A DNA stretch of 64,000 nucleotides from Chromobacterium subtsugae (GTDB lineage: Bacteria > Pseudomonadota > Gammaproteobacteria > Burkholderiales > Chromobacteriaceae). Under the pieces are notes generated by a model. The model saw nothing but the letters and a program-made list of their open reading frames with translations, was not told the DNA's origin and searched no databases. Positions 44,010-52,718 of this stretch are shown piece by piece. Each line of letters begins with the position of its first letter. The stretch's first letter is position 1. A program made the position numbers and the translations under genes. The stretch lies in the NCBI RefSeq assembly GCF_001676875.1, contig NZ_JYKA01000002.1:310001-374000 (forward strand), in the 5' to 3' direction.

Positions 44010-44885
44010 ATGTGGCGGTGGCTGCTGTTGCTTTGCCTGGCGCCGGCCGTCCTCGCGGCCGAGCCGATGCGCGTGGTGTACCCGGTCGGCGACAGCGCCG
44101 ACGCGTTCCGTTACGACGATATCCGCGAACTGCTGCGCGCCGCGCTGGACAAAACCGCCGACGCCTACGGCCCCTACACGCTGCAGCCCAGCGGCTGGCC
44201 GATGGACGAAGAGCGCTCGCTGGAAGAGCTGCGCCGCGGCCACGCCGTCAACGTCGCCTGGAGCTCCACCTCGGAAGCACGCGAGCTGAGCCTGCTGCCG
44301 GTGCGGGTGGACCTGCGCAAGGGGCTGCTCGGCTACCGCATCGCGCTGATAGACGGCAAGCGCCAGCCGGAATTCGACCAGGTGCATAGCCGCGCCGACC
44401 TCGGCCGCTTCCTGATCGGCCAGGGCAAGGGCTGGGGCGACATCAAGGTCTACCAGGCCGCCGCCTTGCGGGTCAGCACCGGCCGCTACGACATGCTGTT
44501 CGGCATGCTAAGCCAGCGCCGCTTCGACCTGCTGCCGCGCAGCGTGCTGGAGGTGTTCGACGAATACCGGCATTTCCACGGCAAATACCCGAATCTGGAG
44601 GTCGAGCAGCGCCTGCTGTTCTATTACCCGTGGCCCTACTACTTTTCCTGCAACCGCGACGATCCCGCGCTGACGGAACGCCTGCGGCTGGGACTTGCGC
44701 GGATGCGCGCCGACGGCAGCTTCGACGCCATCTTCTGGAAATACCACCGCGACGCGCTGCGCCAGGCGCGGATGAGCGAACGCCGGCTGATCCCGTTCGC
44801 CAATCCGCTGCTGCCGGACAGCGCGCCGCTGAACGACAAGTCGATGTGGTACGACCCCCTGCGCGACCGGCCGCCCAAACCCTAG
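44010..44885 (+). CDS. Periplasmic solute-binding-like protein, orphan
   Basis: This 291-residue exported protein has the signal peptide MWRWLLLLCLAPAVLAAE. The remainder resembles a family 3 solute-binding fold: RVVYPVGDSADAFRYDDIRELL, the VNVAWSSTSEARELSLLPVRVDLRKGLLGYRI N-lobe strand pattern, and AALRVSTGRYDMLFGMLSQRRFDLLPR. It has many aromatic residues (FYYPWPYYFS) and lacks transporter genes nearby. Similar proteins are often annotated as ABC amino acid binding proteins but may be sensors. RBS GAGGGAGAG. It lies after the short-transcript terminator and before moaD. Confidence 0.7.
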   Translation: MWRWLLLLCLAPAVLAAEPMRVVYPVGDSADAFRYDDIRELLRAALDKTADAYGPYTLQPSGWPMDEERSLEELRRGHAVNVAWSSTSEARELSLLPVRVDLRKGLLGYRIALIDGKRQPEFDQVHSRADLGRFLIGQGKGWGDIKVYQAAALRVSTGRYDMLFGMLSQRRFDLLPRSVLEVFDEYRHFHGKYPNLEVEQRLLFYYPWPYYFSCNRDDPALTERLRLGLARMRADGSFDAIFWKYHRDALRQARMSERRLIPFANPLLPDSAPLNDKSMWYDPLRDRPPKP

Positions 44886-45231: not shown

Positions 45232-45714
45232 ATGACGATCAACCACATCCGGGTGCAGGCCGAGGCCTTCGACGTCGGCGCCGAGGTGCGGCGCTGGTCG
45301 GCCAACCCGGCCTGCGGCGCGGTGGTCAGCTTCACCGGCCTGGTCCGCGACTACGGCGACCGCCAGGACGTGGTGGCGCTGGAACTGGAGCATTACCCGG
45401 GCATGACGGAAAAGGCGCTGGCCGACATCGTCTGCGCGGCGCGCAAGCGCTGGTCGCTGAAGGGCGTGACGCTGATCCACCGCGTCGGCCGCCTGGCGCT
45501 GGGCGACCCCATCGTGCTGGTGGTGGCGGCCAGCAGCCACCGCAGCGACGCCTTCGAAGCCGCCTCCTTCCTGATGGACTATCTAAAGCAGCAGGCGCCG
45601 TTCTGGAAATGCGAGATCCTCGCCGACGGCAGCCGGCATTGGGTGGAGGCGCGCGACAGCGACGCCGAAGCCGCGACGCGCTGGGATGCCGGCGCGGCGG
45701 ACGCGTCCGCCTGA
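45232..45714 (+). CDS. moaE: Molybdopterin synthase catalytic subunit
   Basis: This 160-residue cytosolic subunit, with MoaD, converts precursor Z to molybdopterin. It contains AGAVVSFTG-type strand CGAVVSFTGLVRDYGD, the conserved LELEHYPGMTEKAL, and active-site LKQQAPFWKCEILADGSRHWVEA with the catalytic lysines. It starts one base after the moaD stop, so translation is coupled. Convergent with the thpR gene 16 bases away. Confidence 0.95.
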   Translation: MTINHIRVQAEAFDVGAEVRRWSANPACGAVVSFTGLVRDYGDRQDVVALELEHYPGMTEKALADIVCAARKRWSLKGVTLIHRVGRLALGDPIVLVVAASSHRSDAFEAASFLMDYLKQQAPFWKCEILADGSRHWVEARDSDAEAATRWDAGAADASA

Positions 45715-45730
45715 CCGAGACCTGCGCCGG

Positions 45731-46252
45731 CTAGCGAGCCGCGCCGCCGCGCCAACCGTCCAGGCGCTGGTAGCGCGCGCCGTCGGCACTCAGGCTGGAC
45801 GCGATCAGCGCCAGCTCGCGCAGCGCCAGCCGCAACGGCGGCACAGTCTGCGGCGGCAATGGCTGTCGCAGCTTGCGCAGCAGCGTCAGATGCGGCCGGA
45901 ACGGCTGCGCGTCCAGCCGCAGCCCCTGCGCGCGCAAATCCCGCCTGAGCGCCATCACCCAAGCCTGCAGCGCCGCGTCGGCCGCCGCGGGCGCGCACCA
46001 GCCTATTCCGCCTTCCCAGCTGCCCAGGCAATCCAGCGTCAGGCTGGCCGGCAGGTCCGCCGCCGCCCGCTCGGCGCAATCGGCGGCACGCTGCAGGGCC
46101 AGCGGGCCAAGCTCGCCCAGGAACGCCAGGGTCAGATGCAGCTGCGGCAAGGGCAGGCAACGGCCGCCAGCCTCGCGCTGCATCGCCCGCTGCCACTGCG
46201 CCAGCCGCGGCAGACAGCCGGGCGGCGGCAGACAGGCCAGGAAGACGCGCAT
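45731..46252 (-). CDS. thpR: RNA 2',3'-cyclic phosphodiesterase (ThpR/LigT)
   Basis: This 173-residue protein of the 2H phosphoesterase family has two HxT motifs, LPQLHLTLAFLG (~40-51) and FRPHLTLLRKL (~120-130), that form the symmetric active site. Family members hydrolyse RNA 2',3'-cyclic phosphates and can ligate tRNA halves in vitro; the biological role is unclear. The start ATG at 46252 follows the upstream response-regulator stop by eight bases, suggesting cotranscription with the pilT-pilU-regulator string. The open frame continues upstream but overlaps that gene. Confidence 0.88.
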   Translation of the reverse strand: MRVFLACLPPPGCLPRLAQWQRAMQREAGGRCLPLPQLHLTLAFLGELGPLALQRAADCAERAAADLPASLTLDCLGSWEGGIGWCAPAAADAALQAWVMALRRDLRAQGLRLDAQPFRPHLTLLRKLRQPLPPQTVPPLRLALRELALIASSLSADGARYQRLDGWRGGAAR

Positions 46253-46260
46253 GGGCCATT

Positions 46261-47874
46261 TCAGGCGCGCGGGCGCAGCAGCGCCTGCCGCCGCCTGACG
46301 AAGCCTCGCACCCTTTCGTTGTCCTGCGGCAGCCATTGCAGCAGCTGGCGCAGATCCTGCAGCGGGTCGGCGTAGTCCTGCGCGGCCTGCTGGCGGTTTT
46401 CGCAGATGCGCAGCAGCATCGCGCAGCCATACATGCCCAGCCGCTGGTTGAGGGTGGCCATCGCGTCGCGGCGCAGCATGTCGGCGGCAGCCTCCAACTG
46501 CCCCTGGTTGGCCAGTTCCAGCGCCGCCTGGCTCTTGCCCTGCAGCTCGTCGTAGGCGGTCCTGATCGCCGCCAGGCAGGCCGGATGCTGGCGCGCGGCC
46601 TCCTGCAGGCTGCCCAGCTCGTGGCGGCCGTCGGCGAAGCGCAAGGCGATCACGCGCGCCCATTCCGGCGCCTGCGCGGCGGCCTGGCCGGCCGGCAGCC
46701 GCGCCGTCGCCGCCAAAAAGCGCAGCGCGCCGTCGAAAGTGGTTTCCGCCGCCCGCAGCCATTCCGCGCCCTCCTCCAGCTGGCCCAGCGCCTGCTCCGG
46801 CCGCTGCTGCGCCAGCGCCGCCATCGCCCGGCACACCGCCAGCATCAATTGGCCGCCGGGCTGCTTGCCCAATTGGGTCGAGATGTCGTTCTGCAGCCGG
46901 TCCAGCTGTTGGGTCTGCCCGCTTTCGCTGCGCGCCTGCATCAGGTCGACCAGCACTTCCGGGCCGAAGAAGGCGTTGTTGCGGCCGATGTCCACCGCGC
47001 GCTGCAGCTGGTCGGCCGCCCGCGCCGCCTCGCCGCTGCGCAGCAGCGCCTTGCCGTAGTTGTGCAGCCGGGTGAAGTTGCGCGGCGAGATGCCCACCGC
47101 CTTTTCCAACACCGCGGCCGCTTCCTGGTAAGCGCCGTCGTCCACCATGTTCTGCGCCAGCAGGTCGTAGGCGTCGGTGTAGCGCGGCGCGATGGCGATC
47201 ACCTCGTCGAGCAGGACATTGGAGCGGGAGCTGTCGCCCTGTTCGGCCAGGATGCGCGCCACCCCCATCTTGGCCCAGGGAATCTCCTCCTGCGCCAGCA
47301 GCCCCTGGTAAACCTGCAGCGCCGGCTCGTACAGGCCTTCGCTCACCAGCAGCTCGGCGCGCAGCCGCAGCGCGTCCAGCCGGCTTTGCCGGCTGTCGGC
47401 CTGCTGCGCCAATTCCTGCAGCGTCTGGATCGCCTGCTCGGTCTTGCCCTTCTCCAGCAGCCGGTGAGCCGGCGCGAGGTAAGCCTTGCGCTGCAGCGCC
47501 AGCTCCAGCCGGTCCAACAGCTGCTGCGAGCTGAACGGCTTGAGGAAGTAGTCGTCCGGCGCGGTCTCGGCGGCGGTCACCACCTGGGTGTAATTGCGCT
47601 CGCCGGTGATCATCACCCACAGCGTCGACAGCGGCAGCGTGCCGCTTTTGCGCATCAGTTCCAGCAACTCCTGGCCGTTCATGCCGCTGCCCAGATTGTA
47701 GTCGCACAGCACGATGTCGAAGCGCTTGGCGCGCAGGCGGTTGCTGGCCTCGCCGGCGTGGCTGGCGGTTTCGGACTGGGTGACGCCGGCCATGGCCAGG
47801 ATGGCGCGGATGCCCTGGGCCATGGTCAGCGCGTCGTCGACGATCAATACCGTGGTGTTCGCCTTGAAAGCCAT
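46261..47874 (-). CDS. Response regulator with TPR-type helical repeats (copy 1)
   Basis: This 537-residue cytoplasmic protein has a CheY-like receiver at ~1-125: acidic pocket VDD, phosphoacceptor D58 in VLCDYNLG, Thr in MITGE and Lys in LKPF. The remaining ~400 residues are TPR-like helical repeats (RLDALRLRAELLVSEGLYEP, YTDAYDLLAQNMVDDGAYQE, NFTRLHNYGKALLRSGEAAR) and end WLPQDNERVRGFVRRRQA. There is no DNA-binding or enzymatic output domain. Its upstream neighbour is a paralogue of exactly the same length. Following pilT-pilU suggests a role in type IV pilus or twitching signalling; that is inference. Confidence 0.8.
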   Translation of the reverse strand: MAFKANTTVLIVDDALTMAQGIRAILAMAGVTQSETASHAGEASNRLRAKRFDIVLCDYNLGSGMNGQELLELMRKSGTLPLSTLWVMITGERNYTQVVTAAETAPDDYFLKPFSSQQLLDRLELALQRKAYLAPAHRLLEKGKTEQAIQTLQELAQQADSRQSRLDALRLRAELLVSEGLYEPALQVYQGLLAQEEIPWAKMGVARILAEQGDSSRSNVLLDEVIAIAPRYTDAYDLLAQNMVDDGAYQEAAAVLEKAVGISPRNFTRLHNYGKALLRSGEAARAADQLQRAVDIGRNNAFFGPEVLVDLMQARSESGQTQQLDRLQNDISTQLGKQPGGQLMLAVCRAMAALAQQRPEQALGQLEEGAEWLRAAETTFDGALRFLAATARLPAGQAAAQAPEWARVIALRFADGRHELGSLQEAARQHPACLAAIRTAYDELQGKSQAALELANQGQLEAAADMLRRDAMATLNQRLGMYGCAMLLRICENRQQAAQDYADPLQDLRQLLQWLPQDNERVRGFVRRRQALLRPRA

Positions 47875-47985
47875 GGACAGCCTCGCGGGTGCCGGCGGCC
47901 GGCGGCCGCGGCGGGGTGGATGGCGGACCGGGCGGACCCGGCGTCGATTGCTACCAGTCTAGCCTGCCGCGCCGCGGCGGCGCGC

Positions 47986-49599
47986 TCATTCGCATTCCGG
48001 GTCCAGCGCATGGTGGCGGCGGATGAAGCCGCGCACCCGCTCGTTGTCCTGCGGCAGCCAGTGCATCAGCTGCAGCACCTGGCGGTCTTCCTCCGGGTAC
48101 GGCTTGCCGGCCTTGCTGCGGCTTTCGCAGGTGCGCAGCAGCAGCGCGCAGGCGTTCATGCTGATGCGCTCGTTCAGCGTCTTCTGCGACAGCAGGTAGA
48201 GCATGGCGGCGGCCTCTTCCAGCTTGCCGGTGCTGGCCAGCTCCACCGCCTTGTTACTTTCGGTCTGCAGCGTGTCGTAGGCGGTTTCGATGGCGCCGTG
48301 GCAGGCCTCGTGCTTATGCGCGATCTCCAGCAGCGTGCCCAGCTCGTGGCGGCCGTCGGCGAAGCGCAGCGCGATGCTGTGCGCCCACTGCGGCGGCAGC
48401 TCGCTGTTGACTTCCGCCGGCAGCCGCACCGCGGCGGCGAGGAAGCGCTGGGCGCTGGGGAAGTCGGTTTCGCGGGCGCGCAGGTCTTCCGCCACCGATT
48501 GCAACTGGGCCAGCGCGTCGCTGGGGCGCTTCTGCGCCAGCGCGGTCAGCGCCCGGCACACCGCCATCGTCAGCTGGCCGCCGGGCAACTCGTCCATGCG
48601 GCTGGAGATTTCCGCCTGCAGCCGGTCCAGTTGCTGGGTCTGGCCGCTTTCGCTATAGGCCTGCAGCAGGTCCACCAGCACGTCGGGGCCGAAGAAATTG
48701 TTGTTGCGGCCGACTTCCACCGCCCGCTGCAGGTAGTCGGCGGCCTTGGTCGGGTCGCCGCAGCGCAAGAGCGCGGTGCCGCAGCTCTTCAGCCGGTTGA
48801 AGTTGCGCGGCGAGATCGCCACCGCCTTCTCCAGCACCACCGCGGCGGTCTGGTACTGGCCGTCGTCGATCAGGTTTTGCGCCAGCAGGTCGTAGGCGTC
48901 GGTATAGCGCGGCGCTTCGGCGATGATCTCGCGCAGCAGCGCGTTGGATTCCTGGCTTTCGCCCTGCTCGGCGACGATGCGCGCCACCCCCATCTTGGCC
49001 CAGGGGATCACCCGCTGGGTCAGCAGCTCCTGGTAGATGGACAGCGCCTCGCCCTGGCGGCCTTCGTTGACCAGCAATTCGGCGGCCAGGCGCTGCGCGT
49101 CCAGCCGGTACTGCGGGTTGGAGGTTTCGCGCGCCAGTTGCTGCAGCACCTGGATCGCTTGCTCCACTTTGCCGGCGGACAATAGCTTGTGCGCCGGCGC
49201 GAGGAAGGCCTTGCGCTGGCCGGCCAGGTTCATCCGGTCCAGCAGCAGCTGCGAGGCGAACGGTTTGAGGATGTAGTCGTCCGGCGCCATCTCGGCGGCG
49301 GCCACCACTCTTTCGTAGTGGCGTTCGCCGGTGATCATGATCCAGATGGTGGCCAAGGGCAGGTTGCCGCCCTTGCGCATGGCTTCCAGCAATTCCTGGC
49401 CATCCATGCCTTCGCCCAGGTTGTAGTCGCACAGCACCACGTCGTAAGGCTTGCCGCGCAGGCGGTTGCGCGCCTCGCTGGCGTTGCTGACGGCTTCCGA
49501 GCGGGTGATGCCGGCCATGGACAGCATGGTGCGCAGACCCTGGCGCACAGTGTGGGAGTCTTCGATGATCAATACGGTGGTAGAGGCGTCAAAATGCAT
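47986..49599 (-). CDS. Response regulator with TPR-type helical repeats (copy 2)
   Basis: This 537-residue paralogue is collinear with the downstream copy. The receiver domain has IIEDS, phosphoacceptor D58 in VLCDYNLGEGMDGQELLEAM, MITGERHYE and LKPFASQ. The TPR-like region shares YTDAYDLLAQNLIDDGQYQT, ISPRNFNRLKS and a matching C-terminus WLPQDNERVRGFIRRHHA. The two copies are clearly homologous throughout but well diverged, so the duplication is old and both appear maintained. It starts 23 bases after the pilU stop, implying cotranscription with the twitching ATPases. The partner kinase is unknown. Confidence 0.82.
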   Translation of the reverse strand: MHFDASTTVLIIEDSHTVRQGLRTMLSMAGITRSEAVSNASEARNRLRGKPYDVVLCDYNLGEGMDGQELLEAMRKGGNLPLATIWIMITGERHYERVVAAAEMAPDDYILKPFASQLLLDRMNLAGQRKAFLAPAHKLLSAGKVEQAIQVLQQLARETSNPQYRLDAQRLAAELLVNEGRQGEALSIYQELLTQRVIPWAKMGVARIVAEQGESQESNALLREIIAEAPRYTDAYDLLAQNLIDDGQYQTAAVVLEKAVAISPRNFNRLKSCGTALLRCGDPTKAADYLQRAVEVGRNNNFFGPDVLVDLLQAYSESGQTQQLDRLQAEISSRMDELPGGQLTMAVCRALTALAQKRPSDALAQLQSVAEDLRARETDFPSAQRFLAAAVRLPAEVNSELPPQWAHSIALRFADGRHELGTLLEIAHKHEACHGAIETAYDTLQTESNKAVELASTGKLEEAAAMLYLLSQKTLNERISMNACALLLRTCESRSKAGKPYPEEDRQVLQLMHWLPQDNERVRGFIRRHHALDPECE

Positions 49600-49622
49600 G
49601 ATGGCTTATGGCGTGGCGCCGT

Positions 49623-50759
49623 TCAGACAATATCCAGGTGGTCGATGCCCTCCAGCGGGTCGCGGTTGCGGCCGCTTTCGCTGTAGAGCTTGATTCTCAG
49701 GCGCAGGTCGTTGATGGAGTCGGCATTGCGCAGCGCGTCCTCGTAGGTGATCAGCTCGGCCTCGAACAACTCGAACAGCGACTGGTCGAAAGTTTGCATG
49801 CCGGCCTCGCGCGAGCGCGCCATCACCTCCTTCAGGCCGGCGATCTCGCCCTTGAACACCATGTCCGACACCAGCGGGCTGTTGAGCAGGATCTCCACCG
49901 CCGCCACCCGGCCGCGGCCGGACTTGTGCGGCACCAGCCGCTGCGAAATGATGGAGCGCATGTTCAGCGACAGGTCCATCAGCACCTGCTGGTGGCGCTC
50001 TTCGGGGAAAAAATTGAGGATGCGGTCCAGCGCCTGGTTGGCGTTGTTGGCGTGCAGCGTGGCCAGGCACAGGTGGCCGGTTTCGGCGAACTGCAGGCCG
50101 TAGGCCATGGTTTCGCGGTCGCGTATCTCGCCCATCAGGATCACGTCCGGCGCCTGGCGCAGCGTGTTCTTCAGCGCGACTTCCCAGTTTTCGGTGTCGA
50201 CGCCGATCTCGCGCTGGGTGACGATGGACTTCTTGTGGGTATGCACGTATTCGATCGGGTCTTCGACCGTGATGATGTGATCCTGGTTGTGGGTGTTGCG
50301 CCAGTCCACCAGCGCCGCCAGCGAGGTGGACTTGCCGGAGCCGGTGCCGCCCACGAAGATCACCAGGCCGCGCTTGATCAGCGCGATGTCCTTCAGCACC
50401 TCGGGCAGGCTCAACTGGTCGAAGTTGGGGATGTCGGTGTTGATCTTGCGCAGCACCATGCCCACCATGCCCTGCTGGACGAAGGCGCTGACGCGGAAGC
50501 GGCCGATGCCGGGCGGGTTGATCGCGAAATTGGCTTCCTTCTTCGCCTCGAACTCCTCGGTCTGGCGGTCGTTCATGATGGCGCGCACCAGCTCCTTGCT
50601 CTGCTGCGCGGACAAGGGTTGCGGCGCCACCGGCGTGATCTTGCCGTCTATCTTCATCGCCGGCGGAAATTCGGCGGAAATGAAGATGTCCGAGGCGTTC
50701 TTGCCGATCGCGTGCTTCAGCAGATCATGGATGAATTTGGAGGCCTGGTCTTTTTCCAT
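49623..50759 (-). CDS. pilU: Type IV pilus retraction ATPase PilU
   Basis: This 378-residue hexameric cytoplasmic ATPase, accessory to PilT, drives pilus retraction. It has an N-terminal PAS-like domain (KNASDIFISAEFPPAMKIDG), Walker A GGTGSGKST, the Asp box TVEDPIEYVH, Walker B LMGEIRD and the His box ATLHANNANQA. The variant ALVDW and the long C-terminus after LFELFEAELITYEDAL distinguish PilU from PilT. It lies 96 bases downstream of pilT and 23 bases upstream of the first response-regulator/TPR gene. Confidence 0.95.
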   Translation of the reverse strand: MEKDQASKFIHDLLKHAIGKNASDIFISAEFPPAMKIDGKITPVAPQPLSAQQSKELVRAIMNDRQTEEFEAKKEANFAINPPGIGRFRVSAFVQQGMVGMVLRKINTDIPNFDQLSLPEVLKDIALIKRGLVIFVGGTGSGKSTSLAALVDWRNTHNQDHIITVEDPIEYVHTHKKSIVTQREIGVDTENWEVALKNTLRQAPDVILMGEIRDRETMAYGLQFAETGHLCLATLHANNANQALDRILNFFPEERHQQVLMDLSLNMRSIISQRLVPHKSGRGRVAAVEILLNSPLVSDMVFKGEIAGLKEVMARSREAGMQTFDQSLFELFEAELITYEDALRNADSINDLRLRIKLYSESGRNRDPLEGIDHLDIV

Positions 50760-50855
50760 GGCGGCTTACCCTGCGTGAAACTGCTTCCAGTCTAGCCCGC
50801 CGACGCCATGCGCAGCGGGAGATTGCGGCCGCGGCCTTCTGCCAAAAGCGCGGTT

Positions 50856-51893
50856 TCAGAACGAATCCTTGTTGCTGGCCTTGGCGCGCGCCTCGCCCGG
50901 CGACACCATATTGCGCCGCACCAGCTCCGCCAGGCACTGGTCCAGCGTCTGCATGCCGTGCTGCTGGCCGGTTTGTATCATCGAGTTGATCTGCGCGATC
51001 TTGTTTTCGCGGATCAGGTTGCGGATCGCCGGCGTGCCTATCATGATCTCGTGCGCCGCCACCCGCCCCTGGCCGTCCTTGGACTTCAGCAGCGTCTGGG
51101 CGATCACCGCCCGCACCGATTCCGACAGCATCGAGCGCACCATTTCCTTTTCGCCGGCCGGGAACACGTCGACGATGCGGTCTATGGTCTTGGCGGCGCT
51201 GCTGGTATGCAGCGTGCCGAACACCAGGTGGCCGGTTTCGGCCGCGGTCAGCGCCAGCCGTATCGTTTCCAGGTCGCGCAGCTCGCCGACCAGGATCACG
51301 TCGGGGTCCTCGCGCAGCGCGCTTTTCAGCGCGTTGGCGAAGCTCTGGGTCTGCAAGCCCAGCTCGCGCTGGTTGATCAGGCTTTTCTTGCTTTCGTGGA
51401 CAAACTCGATCGGGTCTTCCACGGTAAGAATGTGCGAGAAGTCGTTTTCGTTGACATAGTCTATCATCGCCGCCAGCGTGGTGGACTTGCCGGAGCCGGT
51501 CGGCCCGGTCACCAGCACCAGGCCGCGCGGATAGCCGGCGATCTCCTGGAAGATCTTCGGCGCCGCCAGCTGTTCCAGCGACAGCACCTTGCTGGGGATC
51601 ACCCGGAACACCGACGCCATGCCGCGGTTCTGCACGAAGGCGTTGACGCGGAAGCGGGCGATGCCGGGCAGCTCGAACGAGAAGTCGCACTCGTAGACGT
51701 CCTCGAAGATCTTGCGCTGGTAGTCGTTCATGATGTCGTACACCATGTCGTGCACGTCATGGTGGTCGAGCGGCGGCAGGTTGATGCGGCGGATGTCGCC
51801 GTTCACCCGTATCATCGGCGGCAGGCCGGCCGACAGGTGCAGGTCGGAGGCCTTGTTCTTGACGGTAAAAGCCAGGAGCTCGGAAATTTCCAT
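50856..51893 (-). CDS. pilT: Type IV pilus retraction ATPase PilT
   Basis: This 345-residue main retraction motor powers twitching motility and DNA uptake. MEISELLAFTVKNKASDLHL opens the protein. Walker A is GPTGSGKST (~133-141), the Asp box TVEDPIEFVHE, Walker B LVGELRD and the His box GTLHTSSAAKT. The AIRNLIRENK motif typical of PilT follows at ~268-277. GAGGAG six to seven bases before the ATG at 51893 fixes the start, though the frame stays open far upstream. It is divergent from yggS, the order seen in Pseudomonas (pilT-pilU opposite yggS-proC-yggT). Confidence 0.97.
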   Translation of the reverse strand: MEISELLAFTVKNKASDLHLSAGLPPMIRVNGDIRRINLPPLDHHDVHDMVYDIMNDYQRKIFEDVYECDFSFELPGIARFRVNAFVQNRGMASVFRVIPSKVLSLEQLAAPKIFQEIAGYPRGLVLVTGPTGSGKSTTLAAMIDYVNENDFSHILTVEDPIEFVHESKKSLINQRELGLQTQSFANALKSALREDPDVILVGELRDLETIRLALTAAETGHLVFGTLHTSSAAKTIDRIVDVFPAGEKEMVRSMLSESVRAVIAQTLLKSKDGQGRVAAHEIMIGTPAIRNLIRENKIAQINSMIQTGQQHGMQTLDQCLAELVRRNMVSPGEARAKASNKDSF

Positions 51894-52022
51894 ATAATTC
51901 TCCTCGATGACATCGCCGCCGCCGCCGATTCCCCGCTGGCATGGCCGGTCCTGCAATGCATTGTATGCGTTGGCCGGACAGCCGGATATCCCCCGTCGCG
52001 GAGGCTCACGGACAAAAACGAC

Positions 52023-52718
52023 ATGACAGACACCCTTTCCACCCGGCTGCGCCAGGTCGGCGCGCGGCTGGCCGACGCCTGCCGCCAGGCCGGACGCGCG
52101 CCGGACGCGGCCGCGCTGCTGGCGGTGAGCAAAACCTTCCCCGCCGCCGACCTGCGCGAAGCCTACGCCTGCGGCCAGCGCGCCTTCGGCGAAAACTACG
52201 TGCAGGAATTGCAACAGAAGTGCGAAGCCTTGGCCGACCTGGCGATAGAATGGCACTTCATCGGCCCGCTGCAGTCGAATAAAACCCGCATCGTCGCCGA
52301 ACTCGCGCATTGGGCGCACTCGATAGAGCGGCTGAAAACCGCCGAACGGCTGTCGGCGCAGCGGCCGGACTCTCTGCCGCCGCTGAACGTCTGCGTGCAG
52401 GTCAACGTGTCCGGCGAGGCCAGCAAGAGCGGCTGCGCGCCCGAAGAGGCGGCGGCGCTGGCGCGAGCGGTGGCGGCGCTGCCGCGCCTGCGCCTGCGCG
52501 GCCTGATGTGCATACCGGAGCCGACCGCCGACGCAGCCAGGCTGGCGGCGCAGTTCGCCGCCTTGCGCGCGCTGGCCGAAGGGCTGCGCGCCGAAGGCCT
52601 GCCGCTCGACACGCTGTCGATGGGCATGTCGGCCGACCTGGAGCTGGCGGTGGCCGAAGGCGCCACCCTGGTGCGGGTGGGCTCGGCCATCTTCGGCCGG
52701 CGCGGCCAGCCGCAATAA
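52023..52718 (+). CDS. yggS: YggS family pyridoxal phosphate homeostasis protein
   Basis: This 231-residue cytosolic alanine-racemase-fold single-domain protein binds PLP through the lysine of LLAVSKTFP (~residue 38). It contains FGENYVQEL, WHFIGPLQSNKTR and the C-terminal LSMGMSADLELAVAEGATLV. Family role: control of free PLP and amino-acid pools; no enzyme reaction is established. The start ATG 52023 is 130 bases from the divergent pilT. proC follows after 50 bases. Confidence 0.93.
   Translation: MTDTLSTRLRQVGARLADACRQAGRAPDAAALLAVSKTFPAADLREAYACGQRAFGENYVQELQQKCEALADLAIEWHFIGPLQSNKTRIVAELAHWAHSIERLKTAERLSAQRPDSLPPLNVCVQVNVSGEASKSGCAPEEAAALARAVAALPRLRLRGLMCIPEPTADAARLAAQFAALRALAEGLRAEGLPLDTLSMGMSADLELAVAEGATLVRVGSAIFGRRGQPQ

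Follow-up and report, generated by a model that had tools for sequence, protein, structure and literature searches.

What do two response regulators of identical length do directly behind the genes for the type IV pilus retraction motors? The question is raised by a 64,000-nucleotide stretch of the 4.8-Mb Chromobacterium subtsugae genome (contig NZ_JYKA01000002.1, positions 310,001 to 374,000; hereafter the window), in which two intact open reading frames (ORFs) of 537 amino acids, RR1 (47986 to 49599) and RR2 (46261 to 47874), lie on the minus strand downstream of pilT and then pilU. Our preferred answer, to which we assign a probability of roughly 45%, is that they would act as phosphorylation-controlled adaptors whose predicted client belongs to the type IV pilus machinery and thereby tune retraction, RR2 being a relaxed duplicate. 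Coordinates and ORFs agree with the initial annotation, which had described tandem 537-residue paralogues on one strand after a 23-base gap behind pilU. Chance ORFs were dismissed as an explanation, as the genes and their position recur in other genomes and, in comparisons with four genomes, the ratio of nonsynonymous to synonymous substitution rates (dN/dS) never reaches 0.5. A literature search found no publication on the pair.

Their sequence families, together with the predicted fold of RR1, mark both proteins as response regulators that lack a DNA-binding domain and in which a CheY-like switch is fused to a tetratricopeptide repeat (TPR) solenoid. Pfam places Response_reg at residues 9 to 123 of both proteins (RR1, 49231 to 49575, 2.8e-19; RR2, 47506 to 47850, 8.5e-18), with D58 encoded at 49426 to 49428 and 47701 to 47703, respectively. 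TPR models match as well, their best stretches falling within residues 136 to 300, and among the matches listed none in the C-terminal part exceeds its curated cut-off. TPR is the sole recognized output region, an architecture that is presumably the one named REC_TPR in the Conserved Domain Database. The AlphaFold2 model of RR1, built from 55 sequences, reached a mean predicted local distance difference test (pLDDT) of 89.8 and a predicted template modeling (pTM) score of 0.81. Its first 131 residues are modeled as CheY-like (VIA, Z 19.2, 127 residues, root mean square deviation 2.2), and helices extend from residue 116 through 531. In the Foldseek search with this model, TPR superhelices ranked at the top; the TM-score of the first match was low, 0.33 by query length, because long solenoids bend differently. 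A full-length match in the PDB was not obtained: among the 60 of 101 matches listed, each chain covers the receiver or the TPR region but not both. Taken together, Pfam TPR models, modeled helices, and Foldseek matches define a TPR-type helical solenoid at residues 136 to 531 of RR1 (48007 to 49194, minus strand); in RR2, the corresponding TPR-type region (46282 to 47469, minus strand) was assigned by a TPR_19 match and by alignment to RR1, which is ungapped over 532 residues at 64% identity. The intact receiver with D58, the TPR-like repeats, and the considerable divergence within a common layout, all read from the bare sequence at the outset, are thereby confirmed. D14, D58, and K112 are invariant in 12/12 RR1 and 12/12 RR2 sequences; position 13 carries E in RR1 but varies between D and E in RR2, and T90 is replaced by S in two RR2 sequences. 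W200 and R269 are identical in all 146 family proteins. A TPR solenoid is a fold suited to holding another protein, and the proposal of a phosphorylation-controlled scaffold, still a prediction, is well supported by the modeled fold together with the conserved receiver chemistry.

The candidate client is suggested by gene order. Among 61 genomes (our own and 60 relatives) searched at E ≤ 1e-60, 20 matched RR1, i.e., 13 of 19 Chromobacterium, both Aquitalea, all three Vogesella, plus G040 and G050, which belong to other families. In all 13 matching Chromobacterium genomes and both Aquitalea genomes, thus in 15 of the 20, pilU lies directly before RR1. The spacing between the match ends is approximately 28 bases in 4/4 named Chromobacterium loci and 66 and 195 bases in Aquitalea. 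Chromobacterium and Aquitalea have different genes after the receiver-TPR copy, yet the pilU link persists in both. In G050, the copy and pilU are on different contigs, and in G040 the copy lies more than 1 Mb from both PilU matches. In one genome (G003, C. amazonense judging by a contig shared with L139), RR1 is split across two contig ends (L117 and L118), probably by an assembly gap. The location behind pilU therefore looks special to Chromobacterium and Aquitalea, and a pilus role, which rests on gene order in these two genera, is plausible.

Receiver-TPR proteins of about 540 residues are, judging by their sequences, a known and widespread family. Class-wide, members were detected in 45 of 369 genomes, our own included (E ≤ 1e-45; three candidates scored per genome). 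Among the named loci, i.e., the 80 top-ranking of 569 loci confirmed in the named-genome scan, 78 encode proteins of 529 to 567 residues, the other two (200 and 487 residues) being cut by contig ends; the equal length of RR1 and RR2 is thus a family trait and no sign of pairing. While the architecture itself was already known, its linkage to a kinase gene and the Asp/Glu contrast described below are new. The survey covered 120 loci, 80 named and 40 unnamed, the latter taken from 54 class-wide places outside our own genome. In 45 of them, the receiver-TPR gene has a small histidine kinase gene behind it in the same orientation (e.g., L180:11596-12324), and 29 of the 40 fetched class loci have a protein like that of L116:7193-7921 downstream on the same strand. 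The kinases comprise 206 to 246 residues as extracted; most feature the motif H-D/E-x-K-N, and the histidine is present in all 43 extracted proteins that reach this position. HATPase_c was recognized by Pfam in all three small kinases checked, and a structural model (mean pLDDT 80.9) displays a helical hairpin plus an ATPase domain and matches DivL, CpxA, and HK853 over nearly the full length of the model. By sequence and predicted fold, the partner is a small soluble histidine kinase; the literature search returned no publication on such a receiver-TPR/small-kinase pair.

Kinase linkage was then set against receiver chemistry. Across the 116 family proteins counted, 43/43 kinase-linked receivers retain the phosphoacceptor Asp, whereas the 73 receivers without a linked kinase comprise 23 with Asp, 48 with Glu, one with Ser, and one with Ala, 50/73 having lost the Asp. 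This count omits 30 Asp-bearing proteins (12 RR1, 12 RR2, 2 Aquitalea, 3 Vogesella, and G040), and adding them as kinase-less changes the loss to 50/103; it also omits the partial loci L139 and L200 and the short-frame loci L273, L275, and L276, of which L273 and L276 have the kinase. The Fisher value of 3e-15 overstates the link, because the proteins counted are not independent of one another, 46 of the 48 with Glu stemming from one Rhodocyclales/Oxalobacteraceae clade. Many kinase-less receivers retain Asp. What can safely be said is that the receiver of one large kinase-less clade is predicted to be unable to work in the usual way. An acidic residue at position 14 is missing from all 48 Glu receivers; in the Glu clade, located among the named loci L142 to L207, the change to Glu is accompanied by loss of the second acidic residue. 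Two distant members, L278 and L277, carry Ser and Ala, respectively, at the phosphoacceptor position, with no such kinase adjoining.

RR1 and RR2 fall on the kinase-less side and keep the site. They share the family, the length, and the intact receiver with the receiver-TPR/small-kinase pairs such as L180 of Sulfuricella; there, however, the kinase gene is directly downstream, whereas our genome holds no full-length match to this kinase. No small kinase was found downstream of any of the six loci from named Chromobacterium and Aquitalea genomes, and the idea of a paired kinase for RR1 and RR2 was dropped, as the small kinase of other lineages matched our own genome in its ATPase half only, at two places (E 2e-5 and 1e-4). 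That the site has been retained with no kinase gene nearby points to its continued use, probably by an unlinked kinase.

The sole characterized receiver-TPR protein found in the literature search is VieB of the Vibrio cholerae VieSAB system. VieB is described as a 64-kDa monomer with an N-terminal receiver, TPR, and no DNA-binding domain, which binds and inhibits the kinase VieS, the D62E variant being a weaker inhibitor (PMC4352251). With the 537-residue RR1 and RR2 it has in common the receiver, the TPR, a C-terminal half without assigned domain, and a size of about 64 kDa; it differs in that its gene sits with its own kinase and the EAL response regulator VieA, whereas RR1 and RR2 sit with pilT-pilU (PMC4352251). 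The aspartate-to-glutamate change of the Glu clade is the same as that in VieB D62E, which was made as a phosphorylation mimic. From VieB arises an alternative reading: RR1 and RR2 might act by binding a sensor histidine kinase encoded elsewhere, whose phosphotransfer they would inhibit or channel, the position behind pilU serving transcription only. Apart from the shared architecture and the described action on VieS, it draws on the many family members with linked small kinases and on the phosphorylation-site context, the VieB D62E primer translating to FDIFICEYNFGKG and RR1 having the close YDVVLCDYNLGEG (13 VieB residues compared). It is at odds with the lack of any kinase or EAL protein detected by Pfam among ten scanned window neighbors (pilU, pilT, thpR, moaE, yggS, proC, and others), with the finding that even the best hits of the partner kinase in our own genome cover its ATPase half only, and with the conservation of the position behind pilU in two genera. 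We consider this reading possible but doubtful.

In a family tree built by a quick method with support from the Shimodaira-Hasegawa-like approximate likelihood ratio test (SH-aLRT), RR1 (91) and RR2 (100) form two Chromobacterium groups, with Aquitalea outside (93 for RR1 plus RR2); this grouping indicates that the duplication probably fell within Chromobacterium. The stem branch is 0.32 for RR2 and 0.05 for RR1, and mean within-group identity, from 11 genomes with both copies, is 0.750 and 0.875, respectively. Compared with four genomes, dN/dS amounts to 0.09 to 0.26 for RR1, 0.21 to 0.49 for RR2, and 0.03 to 0.12 for PilT and PilU. By these sequence measures, both copies are under purifying selection, and RR2 evolves faster, an inequality that fits the distinct roles envisaged in the initial annotation. 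As to the heteromeric pair considered there, an obligate heteromer is not supported as a general rule, since both Aquitalea genomes show a single copy and G011 has RR1 without RR2. Could RR2 instead be a duplicate in decay and no partner of RR1? Its longer stem, its higher dN/dS in 4/4 comparisons, and its absence from G011 would be expected of decay; yet all 12 RR2 sequences are full length with D58 and K112, and dN/dS remains below 0.5 in all four comparisons; we consider decay very improbable. A receiver-specific divergence of RR2 was also considered, since 7/13 fixed differences lie in the receiver, and was dropped at a Fisher p of 0.07. In a six-protein tree (27 genomes, some with partial data), Aquitalea and Chromobacterium are joined (98), and the six Chromobacterium genomes lacking the pair are nested inside Chromobacterium. 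In the simplest history, the ancestor would already have had the RR gene next to pilU, with one duplication and one or two losses afterwards.

Several observations weigh against a pilus client. All three Vogesella copies sit on a different contig from pilU. PilU is found in just 6 of the 80 named loci (four Chromobacterium, two Aquitalea) and was not found in the other 74, some of which have short flanks. Six of the 19 Chromobacterium genomes lack RR1 and RR2 and retain pilT and pilU. The fixed differences between RR1 and RR2 lean toward the receiver (7/63 there versus 6/144) without reaching significance, and VieB, the only studied protein found with their architecture, acts on a kinase (PMC4352251). 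The descent of most Glu receivers from one clade and the retention of Asp by many kinase-less receivers, as noted above, belong on the same side. Pilus tuning, as originally suggested, is hence favored by gene order in Chromobacterium and Aquitalea and disfavored by Vogesella and by the named loci at large: homologues lie mostly away from pil genes in the family as a whole, but not in the nearest genera, and pilU-adjacent receiver-TPR genes were recovered from those two genera and not from Vogesella or the six Chromobacterium genomes without the pair. The latter have one distant family member each, 29 to 32% identical (all candidates scored), which resembles the third family member of our own genome.

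Much of this would also be expected if RR1 and RR2 were ordinary cytosolic receiver-TPR regulators that had inherited their place next to pilU from the Chromobacterium-Aquitalea ancestor and were unrelated to pili. The rarity of PilU in the named loci and the pair-less Chromobacterium genomes with intact pilT and pilU are in line with such passive inheritance, as is the variability by genus of the gene downstream of pilU, which is thpR, an EAL-domain gene, or a TetR-like gene (the last named by eye). What passive inheritance accounts for less readily is that the pilU link stays while the gene on the other side changes between Chromobacterium and Aquitalea, and that the spacing is about 28 bases in 4/4 named Chromobacterium loci; we regard it as unlikely. 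The EAL-domain gene is another signaling gene adjoining the retraction motors; in three genera it lies downstream of pilU in the opposite orientation (L098:9084-10295, L100:8722-9948, and L102:6919-8133). The EAL protein of L098 and L102 also carries HDOD, and in Aquitalea the receiver-TPR gene lies between pilU and the EAL gene.

Response regulators acting on type IV pili have a precedent in PilG and PilH, single-domain receivers without TPR that belong to a chemotaxis-like system with a pilJ/chpA cluster. RR1 and RR2 differ from them in having a receiver plus a TPR solenoid and in residing in a genome without a PilJ-domain match. In Pseudomonas aeruginosa Pil-Chp, the two regulators are antagonistic (PMC10519157). 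The PilJ domain had no match in our own genome and none among the scanned window neighbors; in the relatives' search, it was matched in 46 of 61 genomes, and the three PilJ-domain proteins checked there (L290, L291, and L293) are NarX/NarQ-like. Because of the missing match in our genome and the NarX/NarQ-like character of these three, a Pseudomonas-type Pil-Chp input may be missing from the host, and we count the missing PilJ match in favor of the adaptor reading. A search for ChpA in our own genome gave 15 Hpt matches, with no open frame holding two, and no Pil-Chp cluster was seen in C23:94000-112000, the one Hpt candidate region read. Single-domain receiver ORFs do occur in the genome (e.g., a 136-residue frame at C45). 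A second precedent is SgmX of Myxococcus xanthus, a TPR protein controlling type IV pili via protein contacts, acting with the GTPase MglA and on PilB placement, in the portion of the source available (PMC7519303). RR1 and RR2 resemble it in having TPR and differ in that they have a receiver, which that portion does not mention for SgmX (PMC7519303).

Elsewhere in the family, the surroundings vary. Of the 80 named loci, 26 have AspS nearby, 22 PilC, and 22 PilD; most of these are from Rhodocyclales, with the genes approximately 3 kb upstream of the receiver-TPR copy. Between pilBCD and the Rhodocyclales copy lie fmdB-, DUF502-, and aspS-like genes (named by eye); this pilBCD link was dropped and read as inherited gene order. 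Oxalobacteraceae copies are near methyltransferase-like and HDOD-like genes, and Thiobacillus copies come after an ABC-type gene (all named by eye). A further member of the family, the third in our own genome (L119:6092-10212, C67), shares 30% identity with RR1 and has Ser at the second acidic position; its gene overlaps a LytTR response-regulator gene, and a CHASE-GGDEF gene is next. RR1 is 96% identical to its C. sphagni homologue in the named-genome scan.

As to the window itself, the two ATPase genes preceding RR1 are both on the minus strand: pilT (50856 to 51893; 345 residues; Pfam T2SSE, 1.1e-50) and pilU (49623 to 50759; 378 residues; TIGR01420, 1.4e-135, above its cut-off), both of the PilT/PilU type, which we take to be PilT and PilU, respectively, from gene order. 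The 23-base pilU/RR1 spacer (49600 to 49622) and the 111-base RR1/RR2 spacer (47875 to 47985) showed no minus-strand terminator-like site in the scan. Across 45600 to 52200, one promoter-like site was detected versus 0.3 expected, inside the RR1 start, and two terminator-like sites, both on the plus strand, versus 4.8 expected; little weight is given to either scan. The neighboring ORF at 44010 to 44885 had no Pfam match.

In the adaptor reading that we prefer, a histidine kinase encoded elsewhere would phosphorylate D58, and the phosphorylated receiver would pack differently on the solenoid, so that a protein-binding surface opens or closes. The client would most likely be the adjoining type IV pilus machinery, i.e., PilU, PilT, or their regulator, whose retraction RR1 and RR2 would tune; the retraction motors are the first guess because of the position behind pilU, and a kinase is the second because of VieB. 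RR2, as a relaxed duplicate, would have a modifying or antagonistic role. A bolder version, which we put forward as speculative and lean against, holds that, in a lineage lacking a recognizable Pil-Chp receptor, a kinase-unlinked receiver-TPR protein was captured by the pilT-pilU operon, kept its site, and was duplicated into a two-protein switch acting directly on the retraction motors, with a steady RR1 and a modifying RR2; the family, on losing the adjacent kinase, would then have split into a large Glu-frozen clade and a Chromobacterium branch using a kinase encoded elsewhere. If true, this would mean that pili can be controlled through a phospho-adaptor combining the functions of PilG/PilH and SgmX. 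For the family, the kinase-linked members, with the site kept in 43/43, and the kinase-less Glu clade provide a natural experiment on the effect of phosphorylation in receiver-TPR proteins. Such regulators are common, one with a studied function was found, and the pilU-linked pair supplies a concrete candidate client.

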